This document shows, piece after piece, positions 50,427-55,104 of a stretch of DNA of 64,000 nt (position 1 is the first letter of the stretch; each line of letters begins with the position of its first letter). Source of the stretch: Natronosalvus caseinilyticus (lineage in GTDB: Archaea; Halobacteriota; Halobacteria; Halobacteriales; Natrialbaceae). Made by a program: the position numbers and the translations under genes. Location: contig NZ_CP071596.1 of assembly GCF_017357105.1 (NCBI RefSeq), positions 2,666,001 to 2,730,000 of the forward strand, given 5' to 3'. The notes under the pieces were generated by a model. It worked only from the letters and a program-made list of their open reading frames with translations, ran no database searches and had not been told where the DNA came from.

Positions 50427-51137
50427 ATGACTTCCGACAATACCGATGAGCGTCGGGTATCCGACGACCCCGACGCCCATCTCGAGGCGGGCGAGAGCGG
50501 GGCGGACGACGCGTCGCCACGAGATTCGGCGGCGTCACCTGACGACACACAACGGAGCGAAGCGGGCGTCACCGATCGAACGAAGGCCGCCGACGAGGTC
50601 GACCAGCGGATCGTCGACCTCCTCTCGTGGATTCTCGACACCGAGACGCGAGCGAAGATCTACATCCACTTGCTGGCCAACCCCGGGAGCACGTCGGAGG
50701 AAGTGTCTCGAGGCACGGGACTGTACCCGAGTACGGTTCGCGAGGCGCTGGCGGAGTTGCACGACGAGGACCGCGTCAGCCGGCAGAAACGGGCGAGTGG
50801 CGGCGCCGGCAACAATCCCTACGAGTACACGGCGATCCAGCCGAGCGAGCTGGTCGGCGGCGTACTCGATCAGGTCCAGCGTGAACTCAACACAATCTTC
50901 ACCCTCGACAGACTCCTCGACCGTGAGGAGGCGAACGACGAGGCGGTGACCGACCCCGTCACGATCGTCGTCGACGACCCGAGCGACCCGAATGACGTGA
51001 CCAACTCGAGGAACTCGAGCGACTCGAGTCTCAACGACGAACGCGACCAAGACGGCGACGATATCGAGGACCACGACGGGGACTCGAGCGGTGCGGATCC
51101 GAGGAACGGTCGAGAACGGACCGACGAGGGGGAGTGA
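50427..51137 (+). CDS. Winged-helix transcriptional regulator, likely controlling the adjacent phosphate transporter
   Basis: 236 residues. An acidic disordered N-terminus (1-60) and C-terminus (about 170-236, Asp/Ser/Asn-rich) flank one winged HTH. It is recognisable from IVDLLSWILDTETRAKIYIHLLANPG, then STSEEVSRGTGLYPSTVREALAELHDE in pieces and a beta wing, SRQKRASGGAGNNPYEY. This domain resembles PadR/TrmB/ArsR-type helix-turn-helix. It sits directly before the PiT-type phosphate transporter on the same strand, with 16-nt tandem repeats between them, so regulation of that gene is a reasonable guess. Confidence 0.82.
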   Translation: MTSDNTDERRVSDDPDAHLEAGESGADDASPRDSAASPDDTQRSEAGVTDRTKAADEVDQRIVDLLSWILDTETRAKIYIHLLANPGSTSEEVSRGTGLYPSTVREALAELHDEDRVSRQKRASGGAGNNPYEYTAIQPSELVGGVLDQVQRELNTIFTLDRLLDREEANDEAVTDPVTIVVDDPSDPNDVTNSRNSSDSSLNDERDQDGDDIEDHDGDSSGADPRNGRERTDEGE

Positions 51138-51168
51138 CGAGTCGCGATACCATTCTTCCGCGGTTCAC

Positions 51169-51232
51169 CGTTCGCCTCGCTCATCGTTCGCCTCGCTCAT
51201 CGTTCATCTCGCTCATTGTCAACCTCACTCAT
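51169..51232. repeat. Four 16-nt tandem repeats between the regulator and the pit gene
   Basis: Four head-to-tail copies (51169-51184, 51185-51200, 51201-51216, 51217-51232) of CGTTCGCCTCGCTCAT. The first two are identical, the third has one change, and the fourth has more. They lie in the leader or promoter region of the phosphate transporter gene that starts at 51338. Confidence 0.75.
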
Positions 51233-51337
51233 TATTCAATCGAGTCTCGCCGTTCGTCTAAATATCGCGGCCTCGAACCCCGCTCTCGAATTCCCGTCTC
51301 ACAATCTATTTCAGTCTGATCCCGGTACAGTCCCGTG

Positions 51338-52504
51338 ATGCTCTCTGCCGTGTTAGTCGTCGGCGTCGTCGCCTCGTTGTTCGTCGGGTTCAACATCGGC
51401 GGGTCGTCGACGGGGATCGCCTGGGGGCCCGCCGTCGGTGCTGGACTGCTCAAGAAAACGACCGCCGCGGCGTTGATGACGTTCTTCGTCTTCCTGGGCG
51501 GGTGGACGGTCGGCCGAAACGTGATGGACACGCTCAGCGAAGGAATCATCACGACCGAAATCAGCCTCGAGGCCGGCGTCGCCGTGCTCTTCTTCATCGG
51601 CTTCGGCATCCTCGTGGCGAACGTCTTCGGCGTACCCGTCCCCACCTCGATGACCACCGTCGGGGCCATCGCCGGCCTCGGGTTGGCGACGGACACGCTC
51701 AATTTCGTGACGATCGGCGAAATCGTGACCTGGTGGATCGTCACCCCGGTCGTCGGCCTCTGGGTTGGGGCAGTGCTCGGCCGCTACGTCTACCCGGAGC
51801 TCAATCGGCGGTACGCGATCCGGAAGACGCCGGGGCCGTTGCTCGCCCTCGACCGAAGCGGCGATTTCCCCAAACCCGGTCTCGGGCCGAACACGACTCG
51901 ACAAGAACTGGCCGGGACGGTCGTCGTCTTCGTCGTCGGCTGTTATATGGCGTTCAGCGCCGGCGCCAGCAACGTCCCCAACGCCGTCGCCCCGCTGGTC
52001 AGCAGCAACGCCCTTCCGGACGACACCGCGATCATCATCGCTACGGTCGCGATTGGAATCGGCGGCTTCACCATTGCGAGACGGACGATGGAGTCCGTGG
52101 GGAGCGAACTCAGCGACATACCGCTGTTGGCGGCCCTGATCGTGATGCTCACGGCCTCGACGATCACGACGACGCTCTCGTACATGGGCATCCCGATCAG
52201 CCTCGTCATGGGATCGGTGATGACCATCGTTGGCCTCGGCTGGGGACGGGCAACGCGTCCGATCGCCGCTCGAGACGTCGTTCGTGGCAACACCGACGTC
52301 GAAATCGAGATGGGTGCGTTGACCGCAGAACCGGAGACGCCGGTGACGAAAATCGGAGAGCGAGAGCCGCCGGAGGTGCTGAACGCGGGCGATCTGTTCA
52401 ACCCGCGAGCGATCATGAAGTACGTCTCGATGTGGATCATCGGCCCGTCGCTCGCGACGATTCTCTCCTATCTATTCTTCGTGGTGGTCCCGATCAGCAC
52501 CTGA
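51338..52504 (+). CDS. Inorganic phosphate transporter, PiT family
   Basis: 388 residues with about nine to ten membrane helices. The two inverted PiT signature loops are present: VGFNIGGSSTGIAWGPAVGAG near the N-terminus (in pieces, residues about 15-35) and FSAGASNVPNAVAPLVSSN at about 208-226, with the usual Asn/Gly/Asp-type pattern. PTSMTTVGAIAGLG and PISLVMGSVMTIVGLGWG are the re-entrant segments following each. It carries Na+- or H+-coupled phosphate. The start is the ATG at 51338; a GTG sits three bases upstream. It follows a winged-helix gene and a tandem repeat. Confidence 0.93.
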   Translation: MLSAVLVVGVVASLFVGFNIGGSSTGIAWGPAVGAGLLKKTTAAALMTFFVFLGGWTVGRNVMDTLSEGIITTEISLEAGVAVLFFIGFGILVANVFGVPVPTSMTTVGAIAGLGLATDTLNFVTIGEIVTWWIVTPVVGLWVGAVLGRYVYPELNRRYAIRKTPGPLLALDRSGDFPKPGLGPNTTRQELAGTVVVFVVGCYMAFSAGASNVPNAVAPLVSSNALPDDTAIIIATVAIGIGGFTIARRTMESVGSELSDIPLLAALIVMLTASTITTTLSYMGIPISLVMGSVMTIVGLGWGRATRPIAARDVVRGNTDVEIEMGALTAEPETPVTKIGEREPPEVLNAGDLFNPRAIMKYVSMWIIGPSLATILSYLFFVVVPIST

Positions 52505-52585
52505 TCACCTTCACCCGCGATTAGTACCTTGTACCATTCGGCTTCCTCGAACGACAGCGCGGCGTCGACTGAATAGGCGCGGTGC

Positions 52586-52594
52586 CCTTTATCC
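52586..52594 (+). promoter_or_regulatory. TATA-like box for the universal stress protein gene
   Basis: CCTTTATCC is centred 28 bases before the ATG at 52618, consistent with a leaderless transcript separate from pit. Confidence 0.5.
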
Positions 52595-52617
52595 GGGTTC
52601 CCACCGTAAATTCCGGC

Positions 52618-53037
52618 ATGATTTCGCGCATTCTCGTCCCGGTCGACGACTCCGAGATGGCCGAACACGCCCTCGAGCACGCCCTCGAGGTGTACCCCGA
52701 CGCGGAGGTGACGGTACTCCACGTCGTCGGCGAACCGTCGCCGATGTGGGGCGAAGCGGCCGGACTCGCACTTGCCGACGACCTCGAGGCGGCCGCCGAT
52801 GCGAGTGCAGAACCAGTACTCGAGCGCGCAGAAACCATCGCGGCGGATCACGAGCGGGAGATCACGACGACAGTGCAACTCGGCCATCCCGCGCGGGCGA
52901 TCGTGAACCAGGCCGAAGACTACGACGTCGTCGTCCTCGGGAGCCACGGCGGCTCGCTCGTGGACCGGGTCATCGTCGGAAACGTCGCCGAGACGGTTTT
53001 CCGGCGGTCGCCAGTTCCCGTGACGGTCGTCCGGTGA
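52618..53037 (+). CDS. Universal stress protein (UspA) family
   Basis: 139 residues from the ATG at 52618 (TATA spacing). It has the ATP-binding UspA layout: MISRILVPVDDSEMAEHALEH at the start, AEVTVLHVVGE, DYDVVVLGSHGGSL and VIVGNVAETVFRRSPVPVTVVR at the end, where Gly-x2-Gly-x9-Gly-Ser/Asn binds ATP. The specific role is unknown. Spacing of about 110 bases from pit and its own promoter suggest separate transcription. Confidence 0.93.
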   Translation: MISRILVPVDDSEMAEHALEHALEVYPDAEVTVLHVVGEPSPMWGEAAGLALADDLEAAADASAEPVLERAETIAADHEREITTTVQLGHPARAIVNQAEDYDVVVLGSHGGSLVDRVIVGNVAETVFRRSPVPVTVVR

Positions 53038-53156
53038 CTCGGTGAGTTCGGGACTTGAGAGACGACCAATAGAGGGGTGATTCAATCGGGACGTGGGTGA
53101 GCAGAGTCCAGTCACTCCAGAACCTTTTCGTCGACGCGACTTAGAGTCGGGACAAA

Positions 53157-53165
53157 CGTTTATCC
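53157..53165 (+). promoter_or_regulatory. TATA-like box for the DUF389 gene
   Basis: CGTTTATCC is centred 27 bases before the ATG at 53188, giving a leaderless start. Confidence 0.5.
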
Positions 53166-53187
53166 ACGGCATTGTGGTCGTGACACC

Positions 53188-54504
53188 ATGCGACTCGTGG
53201 AGCTTTTGATCCCGAAGCAAAAGCGTGAAGCCGTCGAGGAGACGCTCAAGGACGAAGATATCGCGTTCACCCTCGTTGAGGAGGGGAGTCGTGATGAGCC
53301 CTCGGTCGTCATTACGTTCCCGTTGCCGGCTCCCGCAGTCGAATCTGTCCTCGACGAACTTCGAGACGTCGGGATCGACGAGGATTCGTACACAGTGATC
53401 CTCGAGGCAGAAACCGTCGTCTCAGAGAAGTACGACGCTCTCGAAGAGCGGTACGCGCAGAACACCGCGCGCATCTCCCGTGAGGAGCTCCAGGCCCAGG
53501 CGAAGGACCTTACTCCCCGGTTTAGCACGTATCTCGTTATGACGGTTATGAGTGTGGTCGTCGCGACCGCCGGCCTGTTACTCGATTCACCGGCGGTCGT
53601 GGTCGGATCGATGGTGATTGCGCCGTTGATCGGACCGGCCCTCGGTGCGAGCGTCGGCACGGTCATCAACGATCGCGCGCTGTTTCGTCGCGGGATCAAG
53701 CTCCAGGCGATCGGGCTCGGTATCGGCGTCGTCACGGCCGCCGCCTTCGCGTTCGTCGCCCGGACGACCGGACTCGTCTCACCGATGATCGAAATCTTCG
53801 AAATTTCGGAGATCCAGGGCCGGCTAAGCCCCGATATACTCTCACTCGTCATCGCGGTCGGCGCCGGGGTAGCGGGAGCGTGGACGCTCACTGCGGGCAC
53901 GTCCGCCGCTCTCGTCGGCGTCATGATCGCAGCGGCACTCGTTCCGCCACTGGGCGTCGTCGGCATCGGTATCGCGTGGGGCCTCCCGAACGTCGCACTT
54001 GCCGCGGGCGTCCTCGTTCTGGTCAACATTCTGGTGATCAATATCACCAGTCTCGCCGTTCTCTGGTACAAGGGCTATCGGCCGGAGAACTGGTTTCAGC
54101 AGGACGAAGCGCGCGTTTCCACCAAAAAACGCGCCGTCGTACTCGTCGTCACGATCGTCGCGCTTTCGGTGATTCTCGGCGGGGTAACCTACGATACCTA
54201 CCGAACCGGGATGTACGAAGAGGACGTCACCAGCGACGTGGCCGCCGTGCTCGATTCGCCCGAATATGCCGACCTCACGCTCATCGACGTGACGATCGAA
54301 TACACCGATCCGGTCCCACCTCGTCAACCGGAACGCGTCGTCGTCACGGTCGGCTATCCGGTCGGCACCGACCCGCCACAGGTCGCCGAAGCGCTGCAAT
54401 CTCGAGAGAGCATTCACACCGAATCAGCGATACGCCTTCCGACGGGGTCGCTCGTCGAGCCCCAGCGTCCCGAAGTGGTGGTATATTACAGGGAGGAGGG
54501 GTAG
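53188..54504 (+). CDS. TIGR00341/DUF389 family membrane protein
   Basis: 438 residues. An N-terminal ACT/ferredoxin-like soluble domain (1-90) is followed by about seven membrane helices. VVGSMVIAPLIGPALGASVGT is the diagnostic DUF389 loop, and AALVPPLGVVGIGIAWG is the second. The C-terminal part (about 350-438) is a soluble beta-rich domain ending YYREEG. The family has no proven role; the two glycine-proline loops resemble transporter re-entrant motifs. It stands alone with a good promoter. Confidence 0.9.
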   Translation: MRLVELLIPKQKREAVEETLKDEDIAFTLVEEGSRDEPSVVITFPLPAPAVESVLDELRDVGIDEDSYTVILEAETVVSEKYDALEERYAQNTARISREELQAQAKDLTPRFSTYLVMTVMSVVVATAGLLLDSPAVVVGSMVIAPLIGPALGASVGTVINDRALFRRGIKLQAIGLGIGVVTAAAFAFVARTTGLVSPMIEIFEISEIQGRLSPDILSLVIAVGAGVAGAWTLTAGTSAALVGVMIAAALVPPLGVVGIGIAWGLPNVALAAGVLVLVNILVINITSLAVLWYKGYRPENWFQQDEARVSTKKRAVVLVVTIVALSVILGGVTYDTYRTGMYEEDVTSDVAAVLDSPEYADLTLIDVTIEYTDPVPPRQPERVVVTVGYPVGTDPPQVAEALQSRESIHTESAIRLPTGSLVEPQRPEVVVYYREEG

Positions 54505-54537
54505 ATCCAACGCACTCGTTCTGCGAACTCGAGGCGC

Positions 54538-55104
54538 CTACCGCTCCTCGTCGTTCCGTTCGTCGTTCGCCTTGTCGACCGACTCCTCGATTAGCTCCTC
54601 GACCTGGTCCTCGCGTGGTCGCCGGTCGACGCGCTCTTCGACCGACTCGACCTGGGCCTGCACCTCGCTCACCTGCTTGCCGACGGATTCCTCGACGGCC
54701 GCTCCGACGCTCTTTTCGACCTGCTGGCCGACCTGTGCCTCGACGGTCTGCTCGACCGTCCGTTCGACCTGCGGAGTGACCGTTTTCTCGACGGTCTCCT
54801 CGAGCGACGCTTCGACTTGTTGGCCGACTTGCTGACCGACCGTCTCCTCTACCGTCTCGCCCACCGTCTGTTCGACTGTCTCACCCACAGTCTGTTCGAC
54901 CGTCTCCTCGACGACCTCGGTCATCCACTCGGGGTCGAACCGGGCCATCTTCCAGACGACGTGCACGACGTAGGCCACGAAGACCCCGATCCCGAACGCG
55001 ATTCCGATTCGCGAGTTCTCGAGCGTCGCGATGAGGGCGATTGCCAGAAAGATCAACACGCCGTAGGCGATGTCCACCGCGGCGTCGATTTGTGTCGGTC
55101 GCAT
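54538..55104 (-). CDS. Membrane protein with long tetrapeptide (x-T/Q-V-E/G) helical repeat
   Basis: 188 residues from the ATG at 55104. Two membrane helices (AAVDIAYGVLIFLAIALIAT and SRIGIAFGIGVFVAYVVHVV) are followed by a tail of about 100 residues built of near-identical four-residue units such as EETVEQTVGETVEQ, with Val at every fourth place and Glu/Gln/Thr/Gly elsewhere. The last 35 residues are charged. The tail is probably helical or extended and could bind membrane, protein or DNA. No family is recognised. The open frame extends to 55209, but that part is Arg/Ser-rich and unsupported. Confidence 0.72.
   Translation of the reverse strand: MRPTQIDAAVDIAYGVLIFLAIALIATLENSRIGIAFGIGVFVAYVVHVVWKMARFDPEWMTEVVEETVEQTVGETVEQTVGETVEETVGQQVGQQVEASLEETVEKTVTPQVERTVEQTVEAQVGQQVEKSVGAAVEESVGKQVSEVQAQVESVEERVDRRPREDQVEELIEESVDKANDERNDEER

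Follow-up and report, generated by a model that had tools for sequence, protein, structure and literature searches.

PhoU_div/DUF47 (PF01865) is a Pit accessory protein and a gene partner of PiT permeases. In human PiT2, the aspartates of two GANDVANA-type signatures are critical, according to the available part of PMC3126765. Long rods of short helical repeats are described for the bacterial FilP/Scy proteins, which are built of hendecads and have a periodicity of 3.67 (PMC9858780, available part). Other right-handed coiled coils are arranged as pentadecads (15/4) or, like the YadA stalk, locally as 19/5; hendecads correspond to 11/3. The available text of PMC4786415 expects coiled coils to reach a ceiling at about 3.9 residues per turn and places 4.0 outside the accessible range; the most extreme coiled coil that it names is YadA, with 3.8 residues per turn. 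Our search of mostly open-access literature returned, in the texts available, no account of a pure tetrad coiled coil, of a haloarchaeal PiT accessory protein or of the tail family described here.

This family is represented in the window (the whole stretch of 64,000 nucleotides of Natronosalvus caseinilyticus DNA that was analyzed) by a gene for a membrane protein with a long tail of four-residue repeats, or tetrads (Table 1). We lean towards reading the protein as a membrane-anchored, acidic and probably cytoplasmic helical rod that would serve as an accessory of a PiT permease; the tie to the permease is suggested by gene neighbourhood only. The original prediction had given correct coordinates for the gene, which lies on the minus strand and encodes 188 aa, and its order of parts, two membrane helices and then a repeat tail, was confirmed by the AF2 hydrophobic helices (residues 4-29 and 32-54) and by the tetrads that follow them. 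These span 80 residues, with valine, or once leucine, in the first place, and a heptad-like V-xx-V pattern extends the tail to about residue 158; the predicted 100 or so residues with almost no break were thus a fair description. After the tetrads, the protein continues as VSEVQAQ-VESVEER-VDRRPRED-QVEELIEES.

Table 1. Positions of the tail-protein gene, its parts and its neighbours in the window
Feature	Position	Strand	Remarks
Tetrad-tail membrane protein, 188 aa	54538..55104	-	ATG at 55104, stop at 54538; start agrees with homologues
Two-helix membrane hairpin, residues ~10-52	54949..55077	-	Homologue alignment, AF2 and charge counts
Near-invariant stretch HVVWKMARFDPEWM	ends at 54922	-	Ends after the hairpin, at residue 61
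Run of 20 contiguous tetrads (V or L, then x-x-x), residues 65-144	54673..54912	-	
Heptad-like end module VSEVQAQVESVEERVDRRPREDQVEELIEES, residues 145-175	54580..54672	-	Carries the [VI][DEG]RRP motif
PiT-type permease (PF01384, 143 bits)	51335..52504	+	Branch accompanying the tail family
Universal stress protein, USP (PF00582)	52582..53037	+	Second recurrent neighbour
DUF389 membrane protein (PF04087)	53188..54504	+	Between USP and tail gene; not a conserved neighbour

The tetrad pattern was measured in 74 complete proteins, namely those of 73 of the 80 named loci (seven, cut by a contig end, were left out) and that of the window. Neighbouring hydrophobic residues of the tails gave 2534 spacings, a count in which the tail of locus L121 is under-read by the gap rule. 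Spacings of 4 numbered 2343 and spacings of 3 numbered 161; the remaining 30 comprised 15 of 1, 4 of 2, 9 of 5 and 2 of 7, and the stripe-breaking spacings of 2 and 5 totalled 13 of 2534. Tetrad position a is V in 97.7%, whereas position b is mostly E or G, c mostly E or K, and d mostly T. The mean spacing per member had a median of 3.94 and a 10th percentile of 3.75. Most members lay in the range from 3.75, a value that goes with intervening 7-residue steps, up to 4.0; the few below 3.75 are explained by VV pairs or by the gap rule of the reading. A spectral analysis of the 128 homologue rows (126 distinct proteins, two genomes being present in both sets) covered the 113 tails that were long enough, 15 proteins with short arrays being left out, and had its median peak at 90.5 degrees, which corresponds to a period of 3.98 residues. 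With 92.5% of spacings equal to 4 and this spectral median, the period of four is a true one, distinct from heptads, as had been proposed. In the window tail, the longest period-4 hydrophobic run was 22 (M61 and V145 counted); when the tail was shuffled 20,000 times, no such run was longer than 9. The longest unbroken run of the family, 52 tetrads or 208 residues, was found in Natronosalvus hydrolyticus (locus L053).

The repeat was kept in the homologues read, none of which had exchanged it for a non-repetitive tail. Comparison of close relatives showed gain and loss of whole tetrads: of the 84 pairs whose membrane domains are at least 93% identical over 58 aa, 79 had unequal numbers of tetrads. 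Because these pairs differ while the spacings stay at 4 and 3, tetrad number is free, whereas the register is fixed. Such spacings are steps that a helical stripe would tolerate, and we regard their near-exclusive use as the best evidence from sequence for a helix (the arithmetic of stutters in helical stripes is given in the available part of PMC4786415). The [VI][DEG]RRP motif was present in 51 of the 126 distinct homologues, mostly within the last 30-40 residues and sometimes in mid-tail or twice. Some homologues (L110, L101 and L027) end, at the extreme C-terminus, in another acidic tandem repeat that is unrelated to the tetrads and has a unit of about 8 residues, for example DDEEADRT in L110.

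Structure prediction drew a helical tail in both settings, with moderate confidence in one and poor confidence in the other. From the single sequence, AF2 drew one helix from residue 58 to residue 160 with a mean pLDDT of 75.7. With a 23-row alignment, helices were drawn at an overall confidence of 48.4, and most of the tail consisted of blocks of 31-47. Ambiguous alignment of the repeats may lie behind the low values, which nevertheless count against a firm claim of a predicted helix. Valine, threonine and glycine are poor helix formers. A PDB fold search with the single-sequence model gave 23 matches with a best E value of 2.0 and no resembling solved structure.

The low confidence with an alignment is also what would be expected if the tail were a flexible spacer or a brush, acidic and for the most part disordered, in which the tetrad stems from repeat expansion and the need for an acidic, soluble sequence, and in which there is no defined pairing of helices. 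The free length, with 79 of 84 close pairs differing, and the net charge of -0.26 per residue would suit such a tail as well. A brush, however, needs no such register: valine is held at position a while b, c and d vary, the spacings are nearly only 4 and 3, and the register is kept in genera with different repeat sequences. We consider the disordered tail unlikely.

A predicted property of the tail, a slowly turning stripe of valines, was borne out by arithmetic for one straight helix, on which the stripe turns by about +37 degrees per tetrad. Over 20 tetrads this amounts to about 734 degrees, and the stripe cannot face one flat surface for that reason. The turning argues against an amphipathic surface helix of the phasin, perilipin or synuclein type lying on the membrane or on the permease, a reading that the membrane anchor and the repeated amphipathic pattern might otherwise recommend. 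The strongly acidic character of the tail also stands against it, the less polar face being made of V and T only, and so does the match to the phasin model (PF05597), with 13.1 bits against a cut-off of 28.8. We judge a surface helix to be improbable, and the membrane-surface helix of the original prediction is thus disfavoured. The DNA clamp that was suggested along with it is not supported either, the tail being strongly acidic. Apolipoprotein- and synuclein-like surface helices have an 11-residue repeat, and kinship to them was rejected on the period of 4.

At the DNA level, Tandem Repeats Finder reported periods of 48, 24 and 12 for the window array. Identity was then compared at four lags with a null in which the codons were shuffled among the tetrads 2000 times. 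At lag 12, it was 0.575 against a null mean of 0.586, and 1424 of the 2000 shuffles were at least as high. No excess over the null was seen at lags 12, 24 and 36. Lag 48 was the sole exception, with an identity of 0.661 that was reached by 10 of the 2000 shuffles. The visible unit of duplication in the window copy is therefore four tetrads, not one. The window array is no fresh 12-nt expansion; its likeness at lag 12 is forced by the protein pattern and codon use. As to the DNA, the original prediction was thus borne out in part: repeats are present, but its expansion by 12-nt duplication is not supported in this copy. Between the window and the relative L003, the 20 valine or leucine codons differed by a single synonymous change and by no amino-acid change; at the 60 codons of positions b, c and d, 8 changes were synonymous and 3 altered the amino acid. 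These numbers are too small for a test of selection.

If the repeats had expanded without functional consequence, the membrane hairpin would be the sole working part of the protein. Lengths that vary as widely as 118 to 332 aa among the 74 complete members would fit this reading. It has little to recommend it, however, since the adjoining residues change from family to family and valine and register do not, and since some tetrads and the end module are present even in L108 and L109, which at 118 aa are the shortest members. A beta-solenoid or cross-beta repeat of V/T-rich tetrads is most improbable, for although valine and threonine favour strands, the interspersed 3+4 steps suit the turns of a helix and would be out of place in a strand repeat of four residues, and neither AF2 model contains a strand.

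On the preferred reading, a membrane-anchored helical rod, the sidedness of the hairpin bears on where the rod would lie. In 126 distinct homologues, K and R made up 138 of 1329 residues before the first membrane helix, 18 of 1260 in the loop and 254 of 1386 after the second helix; the acidic residues of these regions numbered 155, 75 and 242, giving net charges of about -17, -57 and +12. Both ends of the hairpin are likely to be cytoplasmic, although they are not strongly marked as such, because the positive-inside signal is weak once acidic residues are counted.

The family is a haloarchaeal one. The window protein matched 110 of the 121 genomes searched in its family, its own included, and the membrane-domain profile A1 found 83 of 146 genomes of the order. 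Among 246 genomes of the phylum, 34 matched the profile; 32 belong to the same order, and the two outside it were weak (E values of 0.004 and 0.009). The named carriers come from the best 80 of the 178 relatives found and include Halorubrum, Natrinema, Natrialba, Natronococcus, Natronorubrum, Halovivax, Halolamina and Halogranum. Plasmids carry the gene in Halobaculum, Haladaptatus, Haloarcula, Halocatena and Natrinema; the match is annotated as "hypothetical protein" in six of the eight plasmid records, has no gene under it in one, and lies in one record without annotation. Among phage records, the tail protein had no match.

The protein does not fall into a known family that we could name. 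No model reached its cut-off in Pfam, for the window protein or five homologues, or in NCBIfam, for the window protein. DUF445 (PF04286) was rejected, with 14.9 bits for the window protein and 31.6 bits for the best of the five homologues (L118) against a cut-off of 33.8; the L118 match runs along the tetrads. Identity with PhoU_div was also rejected, this family being absent from the 15 listed for the window protein. By sequence, the window protein had one PDB match (E value of 0.25). For L110, a long homologue, the PDB matches were the chain dnHEM1 (5.9e-6) and a ribosomal protein (0.022), which we read as probably due to shared composition.

A finding absent from the original prediction is the proximity of the gene to PiT permease genes, which is more frequent than chance would give. 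In 99 genomes, 41 of 64 tail genes lay within 2.5 kb of a PiT match, compared with about 0.3% expected at random positions, in a count that ignores kinship among loci and leaves out a weak second family match in genome G131 (E value of 9.8e-4). Since the adjacency was counted among the best 150 matches to the window PiT, 41 of 64 is a lower bound. PiT matches at 1e-25 occurred in 92 of the 99 genomes, 88 of which are represented among the matches listed. Among these matches, all 57 genomes with a tail gene also have a PiT match, 31 have PiT and no tail gene found, and 11 have neither. The 31 suggest that the tail protein would be an accessory and not an essential subunit. The other 23 of the 64 tail genes, which have no listed PiT match within 2.5 kb, warn that some copies may serve another partner or act at a distance.

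Further loci agreed with this. Among the 69 named loci flanked by 2 kb or more on both sides (11 of 80 with short flanks were left out), tblastn at 1e-6 placed PiT within 3 kb in 35 and not in 34, and found USP in 40. None of the four neighbour families sought was present in 23 of the 69, largely Halorubrum and a second Natrinema-type copy. In nine other families of the order, PiT lay within 640 bp in 39 of 53 readable loci. Seven of 61 loci, which lack the motif used for reading, were left out; two of 60 are identical in DNA to a named locus, neither with PiT, and the position of the tail gene is approximate for loci L127-L194. All eight plasmid matches have a PiT neighbour, seven by annotation and one by tblastn. 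The pairs counted in the 99 genomes comprised 22 on the same strand with PiT downstream, 15 divergent and 6 convergent. Such varied arrangements with one partner speak for a function rather than mere joint inheritance, although the loci share ancestry and cannot be taken as independent. Eleven same-strand loci were picked for a short gap, and in 9 of them a PiT start codon with an open frame overlaps the stop of the tail gene by 1 or 4 nt.

In the window itself, there is no operon: the other strand carries PiT at about 2.0 kb and USP at about 1.5 kb from the tail gene, and the DUF389 gene lies in between. A DUF389 match was found in one of the 80 named loci, 2.4 kb from the tail gene. Upstream of the window PiT, 16-bp direct repeats (51165-51232; 3.2 copies, 91% matches) lie in the gap between genes and could be a regulator site. 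Compared with window positions 50427-55104, the N. hydrolyticus locus L053 has kept the tail gene, USP and a regulator gene. It had no PiT match in the locus at 1e-20 nor within 3 kb at 1e-6, and possibly lost its PiT partner from the site. In eight of the 69 loci, which are of the Halorubrum type (L050, L054, L055, L061, L082, L088, L093 and L120), the same strand carries, downstream, a gene resembling amino-acid permeases, a possible alternative partner in these copies; this gene was read out in L054 and L055.

The permeases that accompany the tail gene are related but do not form a single clade. A tree of 149 PiT sequences split into two deep halves, with 113 of 115 tail-adjacent genes in one of them, and the adjacency label needs 8 changes on the whole tree; the sample is uneven, its 26 comparison genes being 6 from the window's own genome and 20 best Pfam matches. 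In the PiT proteins of both haloarchaeal halves, other residues take the place of the aspartates in the two GANDVANA-type signatures, and the substrate may for this reason not be phosphate. The annotation of these haloarchaeal PiT-type permeases as phosphate transporters may thus be wrong as regards the substrate.

Taken together, we propose that the two-helix hairpin would hold the protein in the membrane with both ends probably cytoplasmic, as charge suggests. The tail would form an alpha-helical acidic rod, in which one valine per four residues, flanked by threonine, would make the only strong hydrophobic contacts. Two or more copies probably pair along the i,i+4 ridge with a strong right-handed twist. 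The most likely role of the rod would be to cluster or regulate the permease, as a spacer or scaffold, and to bring the end module to a partner; we prefer a spacer or scaffold to a precise ruler because rod length varies by whole tetrads. The PiT link gives a testable role to a family without a name. It may also point to an archaeal transporter complex without a PhoU-type partner, a partner that is rare in the order: PF01865 was found in 19 of 99 genomes, and not in the genome of the window.

Among transport systems, the window permease is a clear PF01384 member like the PiT phosphate transporters, and it differs from human PiT2, as that protein is described in the available part of PMC3126765, in that the haloarchaeal proteins lack the critical aspartates. 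The tail protein resembles PhoU_div in being a PiT gene partner and differs from it in having no PF01865 match.

Among rods, the tail shares with FilP/Scy a long build of short helical repeats, and differs from these bacterial proteins, as far as the available part of PMC9858780 describes them, in its period and in its two-helix membrane anchor. A canonical heptad coiled coil (3,4 spacing, periodicity 3.5) was rejected for all but the heptad-like end module, given the dominance of spacings of 4, and a hendecad or pentadecad right-handed coiled coil (3.67-3.75) was rejected on the median mean spacing; a minority of members, mostly short, lie near 3.75. With such right-handed coiled coils the tail has in common 4-residue runs with occasional 3+4 steps, an expected right-handed twist and a predicted helix. 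Those named in the available text of PMC4786415 do not exceed 3.8, whereas the tail keeps to 4.0 over as many as 52 consecutive tetrads, and its median period of 3.98 exceeds the ceiling expected there.

In a simple geometry with assumed radii, burial of the stripe would wind two strands into a right-handed rope, with a pitch of about 51 A and a crossing angle of about 63 degrees, compared with 144 A and 24 degrees for heptads in the identical geometry. We tentatively suggest, as a possibility that we hold to be rather doubtful, that an undistorted helix would form such a rope (pitch of about 50 A, crossing near 60 degrees) by pure i,i+4 ridge packing, or else that the helix would be continuously underwound, and that the rope would hold the permease complex together. 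With exact tetrads running for as many as 208 residues, the family offers a natural test of the limit of coiled-coil periodicity, and its members, mostly with mean spacings from 3.75 to 4.0, are a ready-made series for that limit. We rate the tail as one that would act like a coiled-coil accessory rod, yet by its tested periodicity lies outside the coiled-coil classes with which it was compared.
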